From a virus: 56,094 nucleotides of DNA. Below, piece after piece: positions 15,230 to 37,133 of this stretch. The notes under the pieces are model-generated. The model searched no databases and was not told the origin of the DNA. It was given only the letters and a program-made list of their open reading frames with translations. A program made the position numbers and the translations under genes. The stretch is from positions 1-56,094 of IMG/VR virus record IMGVR_UViG_3300033145_000771; one strand, given 5' to 3'. Each line of letters opens with the position of its first letter. The stretch's first letter is position 1.

Positions 15230-16000
15230 ATGACCGGCGAGTTAAGAGTAGCAATAGAATCCGACAAAGTTCTTAGCGATACATGGCCAATGATGAAATT
15301 GGTGGGTTACCGTGGAAGCATAGCACATGGAACAGCGGGCGATATAATCGACGACATAGATATTTGTGGCGTTTTCATTTCTAAGCCCAGTCACTATTTT
15401 GGGCTACACCAATTTGAGCATATTGAACGGATTGGGGTTGTTGATAAGTACGATTTTGCCTTATTTGAAATACGTAAATATTTCAAGCTCCTTTTGAAAT
15501 CCAATCCAAACGTCCTGTCGCTTTTGTGGCTGCCCCAGAACCTGTATATTGTCCAGGCTGATTGGGGTCACTGTCTCATAGAAAATAGACAGATATTTAT
15601 GAGCAAGGTTCTATATAAGAGTTTTGGCGGTTATGCTTATGGCCAGTTAAAGCGCATGACGCATAGCTGTACGTCACAGGCATACCAGGGAGCAAGGCGC
15701 AAAGAACGATTTGAGAAATTTGGATATGACTGCAAAAACGCAGCTCACTTAATCAGGTTGTTAAGAATGGGTATAGAGGCATTGACGACGGGCGAAATCA
15801 ACGTAACAAGACATGACGCGAAACAGTTAAAGGAAATAAAGTCTGGCCAATGGAAGCTGGAACAGGTGGAAACCGAAGCTAATAGACTGCAAATATTACT
15901 GGACGAAGCTTTTGTTCGCAGCAAACTACCAAACAAGCCGGACTACAAAAAGGCCGAAGGCATTCTAATTGACATTTTGAAAAAGGAATTACTTGCTTAG
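15230..16000 (+). CDS. RlaP/MNT-type nucleotidyltransferase
   Basis: A 256-aa protein. The motif GYRGSIAHGT (about 28-37), followed by DDIDICGVFI (about 42-51), gives the hG[GS] plus DxD signature of the DNA polymerase beta superfamily, in the layout of the RNA-repair-linked RlaP family (PF10127). The rest is helical (YGQLKRM, FGYDCKNAAHLIRLLRMGIEAL). Such enzymes are thought to add nucleotides to RNA ends. Here it could restore tRNA cut by host defence; that is inference, and no ligase gene is seen nearby. Confidence 0.8.
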   Translation: MTGELRVAIESDKVLSDTWPMMKLVGYRGSIAHGTAGDIIDDIDICGVFISKPSHYFGLHQFEHIERIGVVDKYDFALFEIRKYFKLLLKSNPNVLSLLWLPQNLYIVQADWGHCLIENRQIFMSKVLYKSFGGYAYGQLKRMTHSCTSQAYQGARRKERFEKFGYDCKNAAHLIRLLRMGIEALTTGEINVTRHDAKQLKEIKSGQWKLEQVETEANRLQILLDEAFVRSKLPNKPDYKKAEGILIDILKKELLA

Positions 16001-21858: not shown

Positions 21859-21898
21859 GGGCTTACTTTGGCTTACTTTGGCTTACTTTGGCTTACTT
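21859..21898 (-). repeat. Four tandem copies of a 10-bp unit at a gene end
   Basis: Four copies of AGTAAGCCAA (minus strand) cover the C-terminal codons and stop of the replication-organizer-like gene. Ten is not a multiple of three, so each gain or loss shifts the reading frame of the tail. Confidence 0.8.
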
Positions 21899-22265
21899 TT
21901 TGCTTACTCCTGAATCGTTCTTGTGCTTTACGGTTTTGTTCTCGCCGCTTTTCGGGATCGCGTTTCTGTCGATACTTGGCATAATTGACGATTAGCCAGC
22001 CTCCATCAGCTTCAATAAGCCGCCGACCTTCATATTCTTTAGACCTGCTGTGTGGATCAGGAGCACAAAGGGCATCGATACTCTCCTGAGCATCTTTTAA
22101 ACTCATCCGAGCAATAGCAGCCATTCCGGGGATCGAGCCCGTTACGTAACCATCGGCATCGGTACTCGCGAGAAAAGTAATCCACATAATTCGTGTCTTA
22201 TCATCTTCCGACCAGATGCTGGAAGTAATGATATTGTTGAAAAGTTTTGTGAAACCGCCATTCAT
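21873..22265 (-). CDS. Replication organizer-like DNA-binding protein
   Basis: About 130 aa from the ATG at 22265 (CGGATGC upstream; other in-frame ATGs exist). FTKLFNNIITSSIWSEDDKTRIMWITFLASTDADGYVTGSIPGMAAIARMSLKDAQESIDAL is typical of the phage replisome-organizer and helix-turn-helix N-domain group, which recruit host replication proteins. The C-terminal tail is basic (RQKRDPEKRREQNRKAQERFRSK) and ends in codons made of the 10-bp tandem repeat. It lies upstream of the YopX genes and downstream of primase. Confidence 0.7.
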   Translation of the reverse strand: MNGGFTKLFNNIITSSIWSEDDKTRIMWITFLASTDADGYVTGSIPGMAAIARMSLKDAQESIDALCAPDPHSRSKEYEGRRLIEADGGWLIVNYAKYRQKRDPEKRREQNRKAQERFRSKQKVSQSKPK

Positions 22266-22451
22266 TATAAGCATCCGTGCAAAAAATATCCCCCAGAGCA
22301 TGAACGCCGAATACCACAAGGGCATGGGCCTCTGAGGGATAATTGAAGCTGATTCTATTGTAATATCCAACGTTCATAATCACAAATATACAACAAATTT
22401 CCTATATGTCAAGTGTTTTTTTGTTTAACTGCTTGTTAGTCTTTGTCCTGC

Positions 22452-29324: not shown

Positions 29325-29870
29325 TTAAGGCATTTGGCTTCCTGCCGACCTGCCTACAGGTTCTGCCGCCGTAAGTTTCATATAATCATTTGGGAAGTTT
29401 ATTAAAGCAAATTCACCGAAGAACTCTATTGCTGCTTTGTCGTAGGCTTTAGCAGCTTCTTCCTCAGTTGCCCGAGTACCGAGATGCGTCATTTTGCCCT
29501 GGAACTTAATTCTTGCCTCCCACCCTTTTCCTGTTCTGCCCGGCCTTATCCCCTTAAATCTGGACGCCTTGGTTTTCCATGGATGAGAGTTCATCGCATT
29601 TTCCCCCTTCGAACATGCCCTGATGTTGGATTTGCGGTTATTGAGTCCATTATGGTCCCGGTGGTCTGTTGATATGCCATCTTTGGGTTGCAAGCCGAGA
29701 ATCTCGCGGTGCATATAAAAATATAATGTCTTTTTCCCTACCCTCTTACTCCTGATAGCATAAAAAGTGTATGGGGTTTTTAGTACACGCCACTTGTACT
29801 GGTTTATTCGCTCATAATCCTCATCATCAACCACTGCAACTTTGCCTTGCGTTAGTGGAATTGTTTTCAT
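29325..29870 (-). CDS. HNH endonuclease with AP2 domain (first of two)
   Basis: A 181-aa protein. N-terminal MKTIPLTQGKVAVVDDEDYERINQYKW module (shared with 36548-36994), then HREILGL...STDHRDHNGLNNRKSNIRACS (HNH-type: H, N, N), then KASRFKGIRPGRTGKGWEARIKFQGKMTHLGTRATEEEAAKAYDKAAIEFFGEFALINFP, an AP2 DNA-binding domain. This is the common phage HNH-AP2 homing endonuclease. Its ATG overlaps the stop of the ParB-like gene. Confidence 0.92.
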   Translation of the reverse strand: MKTIPLTQGKVAVVDDEDYERINQYKWRVLKTPYTFYAIRSKRVGKKTLYFYMHREILGLQPKDGISTDHRDHNGLNNRKSNIRACSKGENAMNSHPWKTKASRFKGIRPGRTGKGWEARIKFQGKMTHLGTRATEEEAAKAYDKAAIEFFGEFALINFPNDYMKLTAAEPVGRSAGSQMP

Positions 29871-30781
29871 TTGAACTCCTTTGGAGTAGCCTTGAAAGTG
29901 ATCTCATTGACCCATCCGCACCCGTCACAGGCCCGGCATTCTGCGTTATTCTCATCAGCTTGGCAATAGCCACAGACAGCAAAAGGCATAGCGAACTTGA
30001 ATATCCTCTTGACGTTCCCGATCTGTGCTGTCAGGTTCTCGATCTTGATGTACCTATAGAACAGGTCACCCTTTTCCTTTCCCTCCCGAACAGTCCTGAG
30101 CTGGTCGTTGAGCTGCTTAATCATCGCCCTGTATTCGTTGGCCCGCTCGAAATACTTGATAAGGTGTTTGGGCACCTGTTTGCCTGTCGCATCGAGGACT
30201 TTTTTCTCCGGAACGGTAACTTCGCATTCGCCATCGCCTCGCCTGACTGTTCGGGTTTTTGCCCGAGAAAGTTGATTATTGGGCTTAGAATCAGGTTTGA
30301 GGTATGAACTGTTCATACCTCGATTTTCTCCGGAAGTATCCTGTTTTTTTAAGTCAGCCTGAATCTTGAATACATACCTCTCGGTACATCCGACATGGTC
30401 TGCAATCCCCCTCGCCGACATTGTCGCCCATTCCTCATCCTTCAAAATCTTCTCGATAATGCCCTTGGCTGTACCGGGCTGGCGTGGGAAGGCGTTCGTC
30501 TTGTTCGCCGCGAACGAAAAGAATATGGCGTCTCGCCGAGTGCCTTTTTCGACGGTGGCCGAGATGTACTTCTTTCCGAGCTTCAAGTGGGCGAAATAAC
30601 GATGATAACCGTCCCATAAGTATTTGTTATTGCCATCGGTTATGATGGATACAGATGGAAATTCAAAGCCCTCCTTTATCAGAGCCTTGTAGCGCTTCAT
30701 TGTATCGTCGTCAACTGGACGTTGCTGAGTTCCACCGTCAATTACTATGTCTTTTAAAGGAACTTCTTTTGTTGCTGCCAT
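29867..30781 (-). CDS. ParB-like nuclease/adaptor with zinc finger
   Basis: 304 aa. EVPLKDIVIDGGTQQRPVDDDTMKRYKALIKEGFEFP and KYLWDGYHRYFAHLKLGK are ParB/Srx motifs. FSFAANKTNAFPRQPGTAKGIIEKIL, then WATMSARGIADHVGCTERYVFKIQADL is a ParB-type HTH. The C-terminus has CGYCQADENNAECRACDGCGW, a zinc ribbon. Such proteins act as early replication or transcription regulators. It is the first gene after pseudoknot copy C. Confidence 0.8.
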   Translation of the reverse strand: MAATKEVPLKDIVIDGGTQQRPVDDDTMKRYKALIKEGFEFPSVSIITDGNNKYLWDGYHRYFAHLKLGKKYISATVEKGTRRDAIFFSFAANKTNAFPRQPGTAKGIIEKILKDEEWATMSARGIADHVGCTERYVFKIQADLKKQDTSGENRGMNSSYLKPDSKPNNQLSRAKTRTVRRGDGECEVTVPEKKVLDATGKQVPKHLIKYFERANEYRAMIKQLNDQLRTVREGKEKGDLFYRYIKIENLTAQIGNVKRIFKFAMPFAVCGYCQADENNAECRACDGCGWVNEITFKATPKEFK

Positions 30782-30801
30782 CAGTGAATCCTTTCAGGTA
30801 G

Positions 30802-30893
30802 AAAAAAACCGATGCAGGGCTGAGAAGCACTATAGGGGGTTCTACAGAACGACCCTGCATCGGCTTTGTTTAGTATTGGTTTCGTGCTTCTCA
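30802..30893 (-). ncRNA. 5' leader pseudoknot RNA element, copy C
   Basis: Minus strand, in order: stem X (30893-30884), A-rich spacer, stem Y (30863-30853), hairpin GUUC-UGUA-GAAC (30850-30839), X' (30830-30821), one base, Y' (30819-30809), then seven U (30808-30802). X pairs 10 bp with X' and Y pairs 11 bp with Y', giving an H-type pseudoknot. It ends 21 bases before the ParB-like gene. Confidence 0.75.
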
Positions 30894-30910
30894 TGGCATT
30901 CTCTACTTCC

Positions 30911-30940
30911 ATTATCGGCTACCTGTACCAGATAAGTCCA
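30911..30940 (-). promoter_or_regulatory. Weak candidate promoter before pseudoknot copy C
   Basis: Minus strand TGGACT (30940-30935) and GATAAT (30916-30911), 18-bp spacer. The predicted start is about ten bases before stem X. Confidence 0.35.
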
Positions 30941-30999
30941 GTAAAATCCGGCCACAGGAATATTCCTTCACGCCTGCAGCCGGCCCGTCCGTCCGTGGC

Positions 31000-32319
31000 C
31001 TACTTTCCGTCCTTGAAAAGCTCGCCATCCTTGTCTGGAGCTACTACGCTGCCGTCTTCTATAATGAACCCCGTCTTTCCTTCCCCGGTTATCCTCTCGA
31101 TCCAAACCTGATAATCCTTTTCCTCGGCCATCTTGCAAACAGCTTCGAGATTGGCTTCGTCCAAGTCGTTTCCCTTCATCAAGATCACTTTCAGCTTGGG
31201 ATTCAGTGCCATTGAGATAGCCACAGCGATTTGAAGCTGCATTGATTCGTTCACCTGAGCAAGAGGTATGCCTTCAAAGAGGATGGTATCTTCCCCGACA
31301 GACAGGCCCTCGATAGGCATCTTCACCGCGGCCAATCTTTCCGCCTTCTTCGCTTCCAGGGTCTTTATCTCTTTGCCGAGAGTAGCGAATTCCTTGCTTT
31401 TGCCAGCCGATTTACTGACCAATTCCTTCTCGTGAACCTTCCGCCGAACATTATCGTTAATGGCTTCCGCATTTTGGATTTCCCCGTTGATCGATCCTAA
31501 ATCTATTAGCGGCTCCAGTGTTTCAGCCAATTTCACTTGGTCGGCTTGAGCCTTGATAAGCGCATCCTGTCCCTGCTTCTGCACTCTCTCCGCCTTCGCC
31601 AACTTTAGTCTCAAGTCTGCTATGAGCTGGAGGTTGTCGCTCAGGCTTTCTTTGAGGCGTTCGATTTCATCTTCCCCTGCGTCTATCGCCCGGGCAGTCT
31701 CGCCTTGTTTTTCGTTATGCCGTGTGGCTTCCGTCAGCTTCTCTGTCAACGCTGTCATTGACACCAGTTCCTCTGGCGTATCTTCCGGGACTTCAATCTT
31801 GCCGGCCTCGTAGTCGTAGGTTTCCTTCTCGGTCTTAACTGTGGAACGCTGCTGTTTGACTTTCGCTATATCTGCATTGATATCGTCGAAGTCCAGACCG
31901 ACCAGCTTCATCAGCGCGTGGAGCTGCTCACGCTGCTTCTTTACGTCCTTGCAGTCTTTGAAGAACGCCATCGGTTCGAAAGCGATTTCCCCGACCAGCT
32001 TATCGAGCAGGCCCTGCGGGGAAGACGCCTTCATGCCTTCGGCGTTCGATATCGTTACCGACCCACCGCCCTTGGCAGTGAAAGTGCGTTTGATGATGAA
32101 ATTATCAGTTTCAACAACAATCTCCGCTGATTTTTCTCCATCACGGATGGGCTTAGCCGGTGTACACTTCTTGCCACAAAAAGCGCTCATTACGGCATCT
32201 AACACGGAACTCTTCCCCGCTCCATTCTTCCCAGTTATGAGAATCGCATTCCCTTTGGGACTTATCTCGACAGCCCGCAATTTCATAAAGTTTTCTACAG
32301 TCAGCTTTATAATCTTCAT
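31000..32319 (-). CDS. SbcC/RecN-type SMC-like ATPase
   Basis: A 439-aa protein. MKIIKLTVENFMKLRAVEISPKGNAILITGKNGAGKSSVLDAVMSAF has the Walker A of SMC-type ATPases at 30-40. A central coiled coil (about 165-330) is followed by FEGIPLAQVNESMQLQIAVAISMALNPKLKVILMKGNDLDEANLEAV, a degenerate signature plus Walker B/D-loop. SbcC-like proteins pair with nucleases to process DNA ends. The start at 32319 follows AAAGGATT. The frame is open upstream to a segment resembling the end of the RecB-like gene (32388-32325). Confidence 0.82.
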   Translation of the reverse strand: MKIIKLTVENFMKLRAVEISPKGNAILITGKNGAGKSSVLDAVMSAFCGKKCTPAKPIRDGEKSAEIVVETDNFIIKRTFTAKGGGSVTISNAEGMKASSPQGLLDKLVGEIAFEPMAFFKDCKDVKKQREQLHALMKLVGLDFDDINADIAKVKQQRSTVKTEKETYDYEAGKIEVPEDTPEELVSMTALTEKLTEATRHNEKQGETARAIDAGEDEIERLKESLSDNLQLIADLRLKLAKAERVQKQGQDALIKAQADQVKLAETLEPLIDLGSINGEIQNAEAINDNVRRKVHEKELVSKSAGKSKEFATLGKEIKTLEAKKAERLAAVKMPIEGLSVGEDTILFEGIPLAQVNESMQLQIAVAISMALNPKLKVILMKGNDLDEANLEAVCKMAEEKDYQVWIERITGEGKTGFIIEDGSVVAPDKDGELFKDGK

Positions 32320-32341
32320 TTTCAATCCTTTCAGTTTGGGT

Positions 32342-32809
32342 TTAAGTTCTAAGTCTTGCGAAGACTTTGTTATCTTGGTCTCTTGCATTGGATACGTCAG
32401 AATAAAGCACTTTGCATTCCTTCCCGGTCAAGTCATCGGTGAACCAGAATTTATTGAAGTTCGGCAGGCTCGGTAAACAGTGAAGATGGGTGAAAGTATA
32501 GGGTAGAAACTTATGACCCTTTCTCCACACTCCGAGCCAACTATCGTGACTGTCCTGGTAATCTCTTACTATTTCCAAGTCCACGTACTCCGGATCCGGC
32601 TCCGGTTCCGGTTGGTAGTCGGGATTGATGCTGTAGACTAATTGTGGGGAATCAAACATCCAAGATCCCGATTTCCATTTTCCTGGACCACGGTATACCA
32701 CAACAGCCTTTTTCTTATTTACCTGCCTGAGACATTCCTGTTCTTCCAGCGACAATAAGCCGAAGGGCTTTTCGTTCTTTTTGAGTTTTTCAATCATTTC
32801 GTTATTCAT
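32342..32809 (-). CDS. Hypothetical protein (155 aa)
   Basis: MNNEMIEKLKKNEKPFGLLSLEEQECLRQVNKKKAVVVYRGPGKW, GSWMFDSPQLVYSINPDYQPEP and a C-terminal FTDDLTGKECKVLYSDVSNA. The first part resembles many phage proteins with an LSxEEQ-L motif; no function assigned. It is coupled to the ACP-like gene by a 4-base overlap and ends over the RecB-tail-like remnant. Confidence 0.65.
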   Translation of the reverse strand: MNNEMIEKLKKNEKPFGLLSLEEQECLRQVNKKKAVVVYRGPGKWKSGSWMFDSPQLVYSINPDYQPEPEPDPEYVDLEIVRDYQDSHDSWLGVWRKGHKFLPYTFTHLHCLPSLPNFNKFWFTDDLTGKECKVLYSDVSNARDQDNKVFARLRT

Positions 32810-33042
32810 GGTTTCTCCTTACGAAGAATAAGATTAAGGGCTTCTTGGACAGTTTTGATGGACTCTGCTTCTTCATCTGTTATGCTAATATCAAACACGT
32901 CCTCACATTCCATAACCAATTCGACACAGTCAAGCGAATCCATAGTAAAATCTTCAGCGAGATTCTTATCAAGTGTGACTTCATGTATATCAATGCCAAA
33001 TTGCTCTGAGATAATAATTTTAAGGCGTTCTATCTCTTTCAT
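32806..33042 (-). CDS. Acyl carrier protein-like protein
   Basis: A 78-aa protein. The fold-typical sequence is MKEIERLKIIISEQFGIDIHEVTLDKNLAEDFTMDSLDCVELVMECEDVFDISITDEEAESIKTVQEALN. DSLDCVEL contains the phosphopantetheine attachment Ser (Ser36), and helix II/III and the VxExL pattern are kept. ACPs carry acyl chains in lipid and polyketide synthesis. A stand-alone ACP is unusual in a phage; it may modify host lipid metabolism or act as an adaptor. Confidence 0.88.
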   Translation of the reverse strand: MKEIERLKIIISEQFGIDIHEVTLDKNLAEDFTMDSLDCVELVMECEDVFDISITDEEAESIKTVQEALNLILRKEKP

Positions 33043-33069
33043 AGTTTCTCCTTTATTTGGGTTTACTTG

Positions 33070-33678
33070 TTATCCGAATAATCTTAACTGTCCCTTATTT
33101 GTCGCGTTCTTGCCTAAATTGCATCTCAGATGCGTTGCCTGCACATTTACTGGTGAATCGTTGCCGCCTCTACTGAGCGGAACGATATGGTCAATGCTCC
33201 CTGAGCGGGGATTCGGGTATTTCAGTCTTTTGTTTATCTTCCGTCCGCAAAGCTGGCAAATCCAACCATCACGTTCAAAAACATAATTGGTTGCATAGGG
33301 CTTATGTTTAACTCCACACCTGAAGGCTTTCCGTTTTCTGTCATGAAGCTTGCTTTGTTCTAAATGGGCTTTGCGATATTCCCTTGCACGTTTCTTACAT
33401 TTTTCGGCGTGTTTTTTATAAAAAGCTTTTCTGCGTATTTTTATCTTTTCGCTATTGGCTAACTGGTTTGCTTTAGCGGCTGCTTTCATCTTTTCTGAAT
33501 TAGCTTTGTAATAAGCTTTGCGAATAATCTTAAGGTGGACTGAATTCGCCAAATTATAAGCTTTATCGTATGCTTTCTGGCAAGATTTGCAGAAACTATT
33601 TAGGCCGTCCTTTTTAGTCTTGTTTTTGTGAAATTCCGACAATGGTTTGATTTCTTGACATTTCGAGCAAGTTTTCAT
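33070..33678 (-). CDS. HNH endonuclease with zinc and tandem helical repeats (first of two)
   Basis: A 202-aa protein; the ATG at 33678 has GGAG upstream. MKTCSKCQEIKPLSEFHKNKTKKDGLNSFCKSCQ is a zinc motif (CxxC ... CxxC). KAYNLANSVHLKIIRKAYYKANSEKMKAAAKANQLANSEKIK is 13-residue repeats. The nuclease part is WICQLCGRKINKRLKYPNPRSGSIDHIVPLSRGGNDSPVNVQATHLRCN, an HNH/McrA type with CxxC. It is paralogous to 34950-35525 and is preceded by pseudoknot copy B. Confidence 0.9.
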   Translation of the reverse strand: MKTCSKCQEIKPLSEFHKNKTKKDGLNSFCKSCQKAYDKAYNLANSVHLKIIRKAYYKANSEKMKAAAKANQLANSEKIKIRRKAFYKKHAEKCKKRAREYRKAHLEQSKLHDRKRKAFRCGVKHKPYATNYVFERDGWICQLCGRKINKRLKYPNPRSGSIDHIVPLSRGGNDSPVNVQATHLRCNLGKNATNKGQLRLFG

Positions 33679-33681
33679 GTT

Positions 33682-33811
33682 ATCTCCAATAAAAAAGCCA
33701 ATCAGGTTGATACCAGCGCGGACAAAGTGCGTCCTCGAACTGACCTGATTGACTTTAGTATTCTTATTAACGCTGGTATCATACATATAAGATAAATCTT
33801 TTATTGGAGAT
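33682..33811. repeat. Outer inverted repeat around pseudoknot copy B
   Basis: ATCTCCAATAAAA..AG (33682-33697) and CTTTTATTGGAGAT (33798-33811) are complementary. The left arm holds the ribosome site of the HNH gene, so pairing would hide it. A weaker version (ATCTCTAA / TTTAGAGAT) flanks copy A at 36999 and 37142. Confidence 0.6.
33691..33780 (-). ncRNA. 5' leader pseudoknot RNA element, copy B
   Basis: Minus strand, in order: X (33780-33771), A/U-rich spacer containing AAUACUAAA, Y (33751-33743), hairpin GGAC-GUCC (33734-33720), X' (33718-33709), one base, Y' (33707-33699), GC and six U (33696-33691). X-X' is 10 bp and Y-Y' 9 bp. The SD GGAG and the HNH start follow directly. Confidence 0.78.
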
Positions 33812-33817
33812 CGTCAA
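33789..33817 (-). promoter_or_regulatory. Candidate promoter starting at pseudoknot copy B
   Basis: Minus strand TTGACG (33817-33812, five of six) and TATCTT (33794-33789), 17-bp spacer. The predicted start (about 33782) is at the first base of stem X. The -35 lies directly after the stop of the RecB-like gene. Confidence 0.55.
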
Positions 33818-34945
33818 CTATTTTTTTCCGAAATGTCCATCTAATTCTAAATCTTGCGAGGGTTTCAGCTTAGAGACACCTATATCTTGAAATTCGGTTG
33901 TAAAGCGTTCGGTAGGTTTTTTTTTGGTAAATACAACTTTACTACCTTCAATCGCTCCCCTACTCTTTACCCAGGCCGTGGCGGCCGCCTTCTGCCTTTT
34001 GAGCCACTCGGTAACTACCACAAGCCTGTCAACGTACGCTTTTGGATCGTCAGCTATTTCTTTCGCATCCATATCGGCCATCGGACAGAATCTAATCATA
34101 TCGCACCATGCGCAGCTCTGCGGCAAGGGCCACGGGTCTTTACAGTTCTTCATAAACAAGTCCACCGCGGACATTACTCTGCCTTGAATCGCTACCTCTG
34201 TTGTAAGCCCCGGCAATCGAGGGTGCTCCTCGGTTCTAACGAATTTCGCGTAGGCTTTAGTACCCCAAAGAGTTTCAAAGTACCAGAAGTGAACCGTATT
34301 GATTTCTTGGTACGGCTCCTGCCGGAACAGTAGCCATGAACCAAATTCCGCCTGAAAAGATTCAGCGGCTTCGGAGTTCGTCAGACGCTTAAAACCGGTC
34401 TTCCAATCCATCACATGAAGGTTGCCCTTCCCCGAACCGAGAAGGTCATATCTCATTGTTACTATGACCGCCGGTGTGGTTTCTGTTTCGGGAATAACGA
34501 CAAGCGAAACCTGATGCTCGACAGCAATCAAGTTGACGTGATATTCGCTTATTAGATCAGCTGCATGTCTGGCATGACGGATTGCCATCGGTTGTATGTT
34601 CGGCTTGATCTTGGGCAGGTTGTCTACGAACCATTCCGGAATGAGATGGAGATCATTCCGGCATTCTTCAAAAGCCCTTTTGAACAGATCGTGGATCTCT
34701 ACGCCACACTCGCTTAGACAGCCGTCTGTCGATTGCAAAGCAACGGCCTTCATCCGGTCTATTAACTCCGGGTCAGCTCCTTTGACACGTTCAACTTCCC
34801 ACGAAAACTGCTCCAGACCATTTGCTTTTGCCTTAATAGCATCCCATAACAATGTTAAATACGCCTGTCGGGGGCAAGTCGCGTATTGCTGTAGACGGGA
34901 TCGGTCCAATACGATTGGCTTTAACTTTAACTTATTTTCGTCCAT
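33818..34945 (-). CDS. PD-(D/E)XK exonuclease, RecB/Cas4-like with Fe-S Cys
   Basis: A 375-aa protein. LQQYATCPRQAYLTLLW (first Cys), then VEHQVSLVVIP, MRYDLLGSGKGNLHVMDWKTGFKR (D and DWKTG as catalytic D and K motifs) and SCAWCDMIRFCPMAD (the other three Cys of a 4Fe-4S cluster). This is the pattern of Cas4/AddB-like nucleases that act with RecT-type annealing proteins. The C-terminal KLKPSQDLELDGHFGKK shares SQDLEL with a segment 1.4 kb downstream (32388-32325). Confidence 0.85.
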   Translation of the reverse strand: MDENKLKLKPIVLDRSRLQQYATCPRQAYLTLLWDAIKAKANGLEQFSWEVERVKGADPELIDRMKAVALQSTDGCLSECGVEIHDLFKRAFEECRNDLHLIPEWFVDNLPKIKPNIQPMAIRHARHAADLISEYHVNLIAVEHQVSLVVIPETETTPAVIVTMRYDLLGSGKGNLHVMDWKTGFKRLTNSEAAESFQAEFGSWLLFRQEPYQEINTVHFWYFETLWGTKAYAKFVRTEEHPRLPGLTTEVAIQGRVMSAVDLFMKNCKDPWPLPQSCAWCDMIRFCPMADMDAKEIADDPKAYVDRLVVVTEWLKRQKAAATAWVKSRGAIEGSKVVFTKKKPTERFTTEFQDIGVSKLKPSQDLELDGHFGKK

Positions 34946-34949
34946 GTTA

Positions 34950-35525
34950 TTATCCTATCAACCTTAATTGCCCACCAGCACCAGCACTTTTGAGTTGATT
35001 ACATCTTAGATGTGAGGTTTGTAAATTATGTGGTGCATCCGCTCCGCCTTTTGAAATCGGAATAATGTGGTCGATTGATTTCGATAAGGGATTAGGGTGC
35101 TTCAATCTTTTGTTTACCTTTCGACCGCAAATACAGCATATCCAGCCATCACGTTCAAAAATATAATTGTCTGTGTACGGCTCGTGCTTACTGTTTCGTT
35201 TCAATGCTCGGCGTTTTCTACTATAGAATCTATACTTCTCAAGATTTTTTCGGTGATACTCCCTCTGCTGTTTAATCAGTTTTTTTGCATTAGCCAGATA
35301 TTTCGCTCTATCATATTCTGCTATTTCTTTTCTGTGAGTCAGATTATACACTTTGTGTCGGTCTGCTATTTCTTTCCTGTGAGCTAAATAATAAGCTCTG
35401 TCATATTCAGTTCTTTCTTTTTTGTGAGCCAAGCGATAAGCCTTGCTACGTGCGTTGTGCTCCTTTTTGTGCACAAGATAACGAGCTTTATCGTTTGCCT
35501 TTCTTTCTTCTTTGCTTAGAGCCAT
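34950..35525 (-). CDS. HNH endonuclease with tandem helical repeats (second)
   Basis: A 191-aa protein. Residues 1-90 are a 13-14-residue repeat (AYRLAHKKERTEYDRAYYLAHRKEIADRHKVYNLTHRKEIAEYDRAKYLANAKK). Then WICCICGRKVNKRLKHPNPLSKSIDHIIPISKGGADAPHNLQTSHLRCN. It is paralogous to 33070-33678 but lacks the N-terminal zinc motif. Its ATG overlaps the RecT-like stop. Confidence 0.9.
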   Translation of the reverse strand: MALSKEERKANDKARYLVHKKEHNARSKAYRLAHKKERTEYDRAYYLAHRKEIADRHKVYNLTHRKEIAEYDRAKYLANAKKLIKQQREYHRKNLEKYRFYSRKRRALKRNSKHEPYTDNYIFERDGWICCICGRKVNKRLKHPNPLSKSIDHIIPISKGGADAPHNLQTSHLRCNQLKSAGAGGQLRLIG

Positions 35526-36532
35526 TATGAAATCTCCACACCAGAGGTCTCGATATAAGCCTTAATCTGTTTTAGCTGCTCGTCGTTAAGCTTGTCCGGG
35601 CCAACTTCGTCCTCATCGACACAGAGGACAAAAGCTACAAACGCAACGAAGTCTTCGCCGCCCTTCTCAACATACAGTGCGTTGACCTCTATATATAAGT
35701 CCTTCACGTCTACGGGTTTTTCTTCCTTGGCAGGTTCGGCAGTGGATTCATCGTCTGGCACTATTCTTTTTACTCGACTATTCGGCAAATAAACTTCCGG
35801 TTCCGTCTCGACTTCCCGTATAGGCGCCGCCCCACCACATGGCCCATCGAGGCTTAGCGGGACGCCTTCCGTTTCTTCAACAGGCTTCCTCGTCGTATCG
35901 ACAGCCGAACTCGGCACAGCCAAACGCCGCTCGTCTCTGGGAGGTACATCGGACTCGGGGGCCGGTAATGGCTCTTCGCCAACCATTTCTTCTGTTATGT
36001 GCATCCCGAACAGAACATCGGGAAAGTTGTCACGCAAGTTGAATGCTCTTGCCTTGTATTTCAGCATGCGCTTCGGGTGGGTACACCACGGCCCCTTTTT
36101 TCCCCATAGACCCGCTGTCTTGGCGTCGGCTACAGAGAAGATGGAAACGACCTTATTGGAAAGCTCACCGTCCTTCCTAACACTCTCTACAAAGGCTACC
36201 ATTGAATCGCCTTCGCCAGTTACTTTCTCCGAGAAGGAATGCAACAGACCGCTCCTCTTTACCAACGCCAGAGCAGCATCGCCATACATCGTAGGCTTGC
36301 CGTGAATGACAGCGAAGGAATTAAGCGATTGCATAGGCGATAAATTTATCTCTGCACCTGTTTGAATTGCTATAAGAACTTGTTCTGAGGTTTGATAGCT
36401 ATCTGGCGCAAGACCAGATTTAATTACATATTGACCAAAACGATACATATCTTCCAAAGAGTTTAACTGCAATCCCCGATTGCCTATTGTTATCTGCTGT
36501 TTAACAATCTGTTTGTTTTCATCTTTTTCCAT
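35525..36532 (-). CDS. RecT-like ssDNA annealing protein
   Basis: A 335-aa protein. The core is GLQLNSLEDMYRFGQYVIKSGLAP, VLIAIQTGAEINLSPMQSLNSFAVIHGKPTMYGDAALALVKRSGLL, then KKGPWCTHPKRMLKYKARAFNLRDNFPDVLFGMHITEEM, the RecT-family signature. The rest is an acidic, disordered linker and a short C-terminal helix region. It would anneal ssDNA with the exonuclease encoded nearby. Confidence 0.85.
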   Translation of the reverse strand: MEKDENKQIVKQQITIGNRGLQLNSLEDMYRFGQYVIKSGLAPDSYQTSEQVLIAIQTGAEINLSPMQSLNSFAVIHGKPTMYGDAALALVKRSGLLHSFSEKVTGEGDSMVAFVESVRKDGELSNKVVSIFSVADAKTAGLWGKKGPWCTHPKRMLKYKARAFNLRDNFPDVLFGMHITEEMVGEEPLPAPESDVPPRDERRLAVPSSAVDTTRKPVEETEGVPLSLDGPCGGAAPIREVETEPEVYLPNSRVKRIVPDDESTAEPAKEEKPVDVKDLYIEVNALYVEKGGEDFVAFVAFVLCVDEDEVGPDKLNDEQLKQIKAYIETSGVEIS

Positions 36533-36547
36533 AATCTTTACCTTCTT

Positions 36548-36994
36548 TCAAATTTTATGATATATCTTCTTCGCTTCCAAGTAAGCATTGTGAGCTTCTT
36601 CGGCAGTCTGAAAATCTCCCAGATGTATGGACTTGCCGTTTAATCTTATCTGTGCTTGATATTTCTTTTTTCTTTTATGCCAATGATAACCTCTGGGATT
36701 CGTTTTATTCCATTGATTCTGACTATGGGTTACGATTCGTAGATTCGACCTGCAATTATTAAGGGTTATGTGATTTTCGTGGTCTGCTTGACGCTTATCG
36801 CCTCTTTTGAGTCCAAGGATTTCACGTGCCATATAAATCTTATGCTCCTTGCCATTTATTAGACCGTTATATCGCCTCGCATAGTAGCTTTTCGTATTTT
36901 TCCATTCGGCAAACCATTTCCATTGATTCAGCCATTCGTAATCTTCGTCATCGACTATTGCATATTGGCCTTGTGTAAGTGGTATTTGTTTCAT
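36548..36994 (-). CDS. HNH endonuclease with AP2 domain (second)
   Basis: A 148-aa protein. MKQIPLTQGQYAIVDDEDYEWLNQWKW, MAREILGLKRGDKRQADHENHITLNNCRSNLRI (HNH) and a degenerate AP2 domain (GYHWHKRKKKYQAQIRLNGKSIHLGDFQTAEEAHNAYLEAKKIY). Paralogue of 29325-29870. First gene of the early region, directly after pseudoknot copy A. Confidence 0.92.
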   Translation of the reverse strand: MKQIPLTQGQYAIVDDEDYEWLNQWKWFAEWKNTKSYYARRYNGLINGKEHKIYMAREILGLKRGDKRQADHENHITLNNCRSNLRIVTHSQNQWNKTNPRGYHWHKRKKKYQAQIRLNGKSIHLGDFQTAEEAHNAYLEAKKIYHKI

Positions 36995-37006
36995 TTTATC
37001 TCTAAT

Positions 37007-37097
37007 AAAAAAAGCCAGCCGAAGTTGTTACGCAGAATGGGATTGCTCCCGATTTGCCTTCGGCTGGTTGTATTTGAATCTTTTGTTCTGCGTAACA
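37007..37097 (-). ncRNA. 5' leader pseudoknot RNA element, copy A
   Basis: Minus strand, in order: X (37097-37086), A-rich spacer, Y (37067-37058), hairpin GGGA-GCAA-UCCC (37050-37039), X' (37037-37026), one base, Y' (37024-37015), G/C and seven U (37013-37007). X-X' is 12 bp and Y-Y' 10 bp. The ribosome site and HNH-AP2 start lie just beyond. Confidence 0.8.
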
Positions 37098-37104
37098 TGC
37101 CGTA

Positions 37105-37133
37105 ATAATATGTCTTCTATCGGCTTAGTGCAA
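37105..37133 (-). promoter_or_regulatory. Candidate early promoter starting at pseudoknot copy A
   Basis: Minus strand TTGCAC (37133-37128) and TATTAT (37110-37105, five of six), 17-bp spacer. The start would be near 37098, the first base of stem X. Confidence 0.55.

Follow-up and report, generated by a model that had tools for sequence, protein, structure and literature searches.

Among the closest described systems is the Sinorhizobium meliloti trpLE(G) operon, in which an intrinsic terminator lies 5′ of the operon and termination releases the small RNA rnTrpL, an attenuator RNA that begins at its 5′ end with the ATG of its own leader peptide (PMC7298713). The phage element that we describe here resembles rnTrpL in its predicted 5′ end at the start codon of a leader frame and in the intrinsic terminator before the operon, but its stems are pseudoknotted and do not overlap, it stands before replication, ParB or HNH genes, and its leader peptides are unrelated, whereas the peptide frame of rnTrpL serves tryptophan-dependent attenuation. 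By analogy, the element may work like a leaderless leader-peptide attenuator minus the regulatory peptide and the exclusive antiterminator; the features of such attenuators that it lacks are regulatory codons or conserved residues, and an antiterminator and terminator that are mutually exclusive.

The preQ1 and SAM-II riboswitches likewise place a pseudoknot in a 5′ leader near a terminator or ribosome site and keep a conserved ligand-binding core, whereas the phage element has no sequence conserved between copies and no match in Rfam. The put sites of phage HK022 also sit just 3′ of early phage promoters; they consist of two plain stem-loops of conserved sequence, with neither pseudoknot nor U-tract. 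This description sets put apart, and an architecture scan of HK022 (positions 1-39800 of 40751) listed no copy, so that the put-like device proposed by an initial reading of the DNA (the sequence-only reading) is not supported. The T4 gene 32 leader also forms a phage mRNA leader pseudoknot, one whose structure is conserved more than its sequence, but that pseudoknot is a protein-binding autoregulatory site, present once per phage and without a terminator U-tract. The lambda tR′ late leader terminator, too, is a structured-loop terminator soon after a phage promoter, but judged from its sequence the hairpin in its loop is nested and not paired with the RNA 5′ end. In the literature searched, no description matched a phage leader pseudoknot with a terminator or a leaderless start. 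Rfam gave nothing at the gathering score and nothing relevant at E<=1, which bears out the earlier remark that no family has this layout. From sequence, the element looks like an undescribed on/off switch.

Four copies in one phage genome

The stretch of DNA analysed (the window) is the 56,094-base viral record IMGVR_UViG_3300033145_000771, from a tailed phage with genes for a portal, a lambda-J-like tail fibre, RecT, HNH nucleases and a ParB-like protein; a search for close relatives of its RecT or helicase found none. Direct reading and descriptor scans identify four copies of the element in the window, A to D, all on the minus strand. Each has the order stem X, spacer L1, stem Y, loop L2, X′, a gap of 0-1 nt (A or G), Y′ and a T-tract, and copies A, B and C each have a small hairpin within the loop. 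Y-Y′ and the T-tract constitute a predicted intrinsic terminator 5′ of the ribosome site of the first gene. The stem sequences of the four copies are unrelated to one another.

37105..37133, minus: promoter of copy A, TTGCAC and TATTAT, spacing 17 (sequence; promoter-anchored scan)
37015..37098, minus: copy A pseudoknot (reading, descriptor scans, folding); ATG at predicted +1 (37098)
37097-37086 with 37037-37026, minus: copy A stem X with X′, 12 bp
37085-37068, minus: copy A L1, 18 nt
37067-37058 with 37024-37015, minus: copy A stem Y with Y′, 10 bp; 1 nt (A) between X′ and Y′
37057-37038, minus: copy A L2 and small hairpin
37007..37014, minus: CT7 tract 3′ of copy A Y′ (sequence)
36991..37098, minus: leader ORF A, 35 codons; stop overlaps next start (ATGA)
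36548..36994, minus: HNH/AP2 endonuclease gene, first gene 3′ of copy A
33789..33817, minus: promoter of copy B, TTGACG and TATCTT, spacing 17 (sequence; promoter-anchored scan)
33699..33782, minus: copy B pseudoknot (reading, descriptor scans, folding); ATG at predicted +1
33781-33770 with 33719-33708, minus: copy B stem X with X′, 12 bp
33769-33752, minus: copy B L1, 18 nt
33751-33743 with 33707-33699, minus: copy B stem Y with Y′, 9 bp; 0 nt between X′ and Y′
33696-33691, minus: T6 of copy B, preceded by GC, 3′ of Y′
33702..33782, minus: leader ORF B, 26 codons; stop within Y′
33070..33678, minus: HNH endonuclease gene, first gene 3′ of copy B
30809..30894, minus: copy C pseudoknot (reading, descriptor scans, folding); ATG at 5′ edge of X
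30893-30884 with 30830-30821, minus: copy C stem X with X′, 10 bp
30883-30864, minus: copy C L1, 20 nt
30863-30853 with 30819-30809, minus: copy C stem Y with Y′, 11 bp; 1 nt (G) between X′ and Y′
30808-30802, minus: T7 of copy C
30781..30894, minus: leader ORF C, 37 codons; stop overlaps next start (TGATG)
29867..30781, minus: ParB-like protein gene, first gene 3′ of copy C
22385..22412, minus: promoter of copy D, TTGACA and TATATT, spacing 16 (sequence; promoter-anchored scan)
22287..22377, minus: copy D pseudoknot (descriptor scans, sequence, folding)
22377-22362 with 22315-22300, minus: copy D stem X with X′, 16 bp including G-U pairs; X begins ATG
22361-22342, minus: copy D L1
22341-22330 with 22298-22287, minus: copy D stem Y with Y′, 12 bp; 1 nt (G) between X′ and Y′
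22286-22281, minus: T6 of copy D
22201..22377, minus: leader ORF D, 58 codons; overlaps next gene in a different frame
21873..22274, minus: replication-initiation-like protein gene, first gene 3′ of copy D

Three of these leaders, at 30.8, 33.7 and 37.0 kb, were already described in the sequence-only reading and are real by direct reading, by descriptor scans and by scores far stronger than those of shuffles; copy D (22377-22287, minus), the start codon at the 5′ edge of X and the leaderless reading frame had been missed. The reported pairing over 9-12 bp stands for A, B and C. A promoter had been assigned to each copy: those at A and B (and also D) are good and sigma-70-like, whereas upstream of C there is only a weak one. 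The A-rich spacer sequence, given as AAUACUAAA or similar, is common to B and C only and absent from A, and the single unpaired base between X′ and Y′ is found in A and C but not in B. The claimed compensatory change within the window genome is not demonstrated, the stems being simply unrelated.

At copy B, a run of 13 nt between the -35 and -10 elements of the promoter (33811-33799, minus) is the exact reverse complement of 33694-33682 (minus), the ribosome-site region of the HNH gene 3′ of the copy, and pairing of the two could mask this site solely in read-through RNA. At A the match is weaker (8 nt); as a general feature this pairing was dropped, being clear at B alone.

Strength of the matches

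Matches in descriptor scans were scored by the stacking energy of X plus Y, in kcal/mol. In the window, copies A-D score -44.0 to -51.5, and the next-best T-tract matches score -30.3 or weaker, save for one of -39 on the opposite strand over copy C; 40 dinucleotide shuffles of the window gave 13 matches at or below -30 altogether, the best at -45.1, and a score of -40 was rare among them. A promoter-anchored scan, which accepted a match only if a sigma-70-like promoter set the start of X at about +1, found copies A, B, D, E, I and J at -41.7 to -51.7 in 1.9 Mb, the best match in three shuffles being -31.1. With the data enlarged to 3.5 Mb, copy N was added to give seven distinct matches at or below -41.7, while the strongest in shuffles of the same 3.5 Mb reached only -32.4. 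The +1 predicted from these consensus promoters falls no more than about 3 nt from where X begins; copies C, F and H have no strong promoter at the proper distance. When no promoter is demanded, weak matches are equally frequent in real and shuffled DNA, and the claimed set consists only of strong copies with promoter phasing or a start codon. High-scoring matches in the G+C-rich Vibaki, D29 and Sansa lack a promoter and were taken as chance.

Copies in other phages

Portal relatives and distant AAA-protein relatives were taken from IMG/VR, and long contigs were read further. The sequence-only reading had named a lack of further copies in related phages as evidence against itself, and this lack is not what was seen: the same architecture with unrelated stems is present in four phages related through their portal and, beyond these, in two other groups (G003, G018, G023, G032, G051 and G043/G044/G046).

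L071:10667: copy E, portal relative G003 (promoter-anchored scan)
L071:9678: copy F, portal relative G003 (scan; strong promoter absent)
L090:4321: copy H, portal relative G018 (scan; strong promoter absent)
L036:1634: copy I, portal relative G032 (promoter-anchored scan)
L135:518, minus: copy J, portal relative G023 (promoter-anchored scan)
L254:7554: copy M, G051 (scan)
L170:9643: copy N, G043/G044 (promoter-anchored scan; more elaborate form)
L170:4011-4110, plus: element N2, identical in L171 and L174

The more elaborate form is shared by G043/G044 and their relative G046 (L170:9643, L174). Several elements precede early-type or replication genes, namely replication initiators (D, J, M, N2), ParB and HNH. 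The element is absent from most genomes examined, and no copy was recognised in the scanned sequence of the cultured phages lambda, HK022 (1-39800 of 40751), T7, T4, D29, Vegas, Cellulophaga phi18:2, Vibrio D80, Javan253 or Sansa.

N2 is a second leaderless-looking element in the phages that carry N, with a strong promoter, an ATG, an 11-codon frame, a bulged X stem and a terminator 5′ of a primosomal-type gene. The AAA-ParB gene pair has its closest relative in L002, where the gap (L002:7990-8104) contains a similar small hairpin without the promoter-pseudoknot; this ParB ortholog without the element suggests gain or loss at a fixed gene junction.

Several candidates were set aside. Copy K (L148:234, G028) was rejected, its X′ being paired inside the terminator loop; its X-X′ match decays in G027/G028 and is lost in G027. 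L071:12019-11899 (minus) was left uncounted (long spacer, short X, promoter absent), and L152:3025 (plus), with a weak X, is tentative only; the gene that follows it is replication-like in look and has no PHROG match.

Start codons and leader reading frames

The 5′ edge of X is ATG in copies A, B, C, D, F, I and M, GTG in E and N, and TTG in H; copy J has no start codon at X. The start codon lies within a few nt of the predicted +1 in A, B, D, E, I and N, and J is the exception. After 6,060 promoter-like sites, ATG occurs at about 1.7% per single offset with no enrichment at +1, and for this reason the view that these phages commonly use a leaderless ATG was rejected. The idea of a start codon was drawn from A-D; by then E, F, H, I and J were known, and M and N were found afterwards without its use.

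Nine copies (A, B, C, D, F, H, I, M and N) have an uninterrupted frame of 26 codons or more, and those of A and C stop exactly at the start of the next gene. Frames that end before Y occur in E (2 codons), N2 (11) and the tentative L (4), so full transit of a ribosome is not general. The leader peptides have nothing in common between copies, lack conservation even between N and its ortholog, N′, and thus give no hint of an amino-acid sensor. As features read from sequence, the architecture and the placement of the start codon are well supported; the sequence likewise shows where X lies relative to the predicted +1, the shape of the terminator and the order of the genes.

Folding and covariation

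When the RNA is folded to the end of X′, X-X′ forms in all 14 of the 14 leaders examined; in pseudoknot-free prediction of full-length leaders, Y-Y′ predominates in most. The two helices do not overlap and could form together. N and N′ are 73% identical across the element, and their alignment contains two-sided compensatory changes, two in a nested stem P and one in stem Y. In alignment register, stem X has one-sided changes, and three of its pairs are broken; folded directly, the stem has 12 bp with a one-base bulge (-19.3 kcal/mol). X′ has a second possible partner inside the loop, and because it can pair there, N and N′ support the paired stems more than the pseudoknot itself. An HDV-like ribozyme was rejected, given the X′-Y′ gap of 0-1 nt in the window copies, the lack of a catalytic C or a P4/J4-2 region in this gap, and the lack of an Rfam match.

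A proposed mechanism and its alternatives

Of what the sequence-only reading had offered as interpretation, the evidence supports the pseudoknotted terminator leader, and we too read the element most readily as an attenuator. We favour a transcription attenuator gated by translation and sited at the 5′ ends of phage operons, a proposal that we hold at slightly less than even confidence and in which we infer the direction of control, the real start sites, leader translation and termination. Transcription would start at or just 5′ of the first bases of X, so that the transcript opens with a start codon, or a few bases before one, and is leaderless or nearly so. On ribosome-free RNA, X′ would take X once it is made, hiding the start codon; Y′ would then pair with Y inside the loop of the X-X′ hairpin and, with the U-tract, end transcription 5′ of the first gene. 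Because X′ and Y′ abut, the X and Y helices could stack as one long helix with the RNA 5′ end buried at the junction, and such burial would explain why X lies at +1. A ribosome that starts on the 5′ codon before X′ exists would cover X and then Y, the terminator could not form and the operon would be read. Where the leader frame ends on the next start codon, as in copies A and C, it would also pass ribosomes on. With no overlap between X′ and Y′, the element lacks the classic antiterminator that excludes its terminator.

More tentatively, the copies may represent a class of RNA from uncultured phages that is defined by structure alone: a 5′-terminal start codon is one arm of a pseudoknot, the other stem is a terminator, and both transcription and translation depend on whether a ribosome lands on the nascent 5′ end, the stems being freely replaced and pairing alone mattering. 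If true, this would be a compact regulator that homology searches cannot see, since only base pairing and the position at the transcript start are conserved. It would join leaderless initiation, co-transcriptional folding and intrinsic termination, would make the speed of ribosome loading on nascent leaderless RNA testable, and suggests that phage leaders harbour structured RNAs overlooked by sequence-based RNA families.

Control of the attenuator by a trans-acting factor (a phage protein or RNA, or a modified polymerase), with the start codon incidental, is unlikely. The pseudoknotted terminator would then shut operons until the factor arrives, in keeping with the early-type or replication genes that follow several elements, and the A-rich single-stranded L1, whose sequence B and C share, could be a binding site; but no sequence motif is common to all copies, and the start codon at +1 in ten copies, against an ATG background near 2% per position, is left unexplained. 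We give just as little credence to a constitutive terminator that protects the 5′ end and in which translation has no role, yielding either a structured RNA that is stable and about 85-105 nt long or, on read-through, a stabilised mRNA, with both ends buried. X within a few nt of the predicted +1 and the abutting X′ and Y′, which would bury the 5′ end, agree with protection, but a single 5′ hairpin would be enough for it, and it accounts for neither a start codon as the first bases nor long open frames.

Less probable again is a switch of opposite sign. In it, X-X′ would keep Y within a closed loop and so impede the terminator; once a ribosome occupied the 5′ end, X′ would be released, Y-Y′ would terminate, and leader translation would repress. 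X-X′ is indeed the stable fold before Y′ exists in all leaders, and the short frames of E, N2 and L would keep the ribosome to the region before Y; most frames, however, cross Y, and a ribosome moving through it would prevent Y-Y′ from forming. Chance, or ordinary nested terminators mistaken for pseudoknots, as is true of copy K (L148:234) and the lambda tR′ region with X′ paired within the terminator loop, is very improbable, being already contradicted for the main set by seven promoter-anchored matches against none in shuffles at equal strength and by four copies within one 56-kb genome.

Neighbouring features

In the window, four genes for HNH-type endonucleases lie within a span of 8 kb on the minus strand (36548-36994, 34950-35525, 33070-33678 and 29325-29870), two of the four being the first genes after copies A and B. 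The phage also encodes an acyl-carrier-like protein (32806-33042, minus).

A tRNA-like mini-helix, made up of an acceptor-like GCCCUG/CAGGGC and a T-arm with the D and anticodon arms absent, is found at L071:9636-9679 (+), L081:1813-1771 (-), and L089:15290-15333 and 15737-15780 (+). The Rfam tRNA model gave no match to it. It is conserved directly 5′ of genes in three phages, at 84-88% identity, and in L071 its 3′ end adjoins X of copy F directly, where processing could define the 5′ end.
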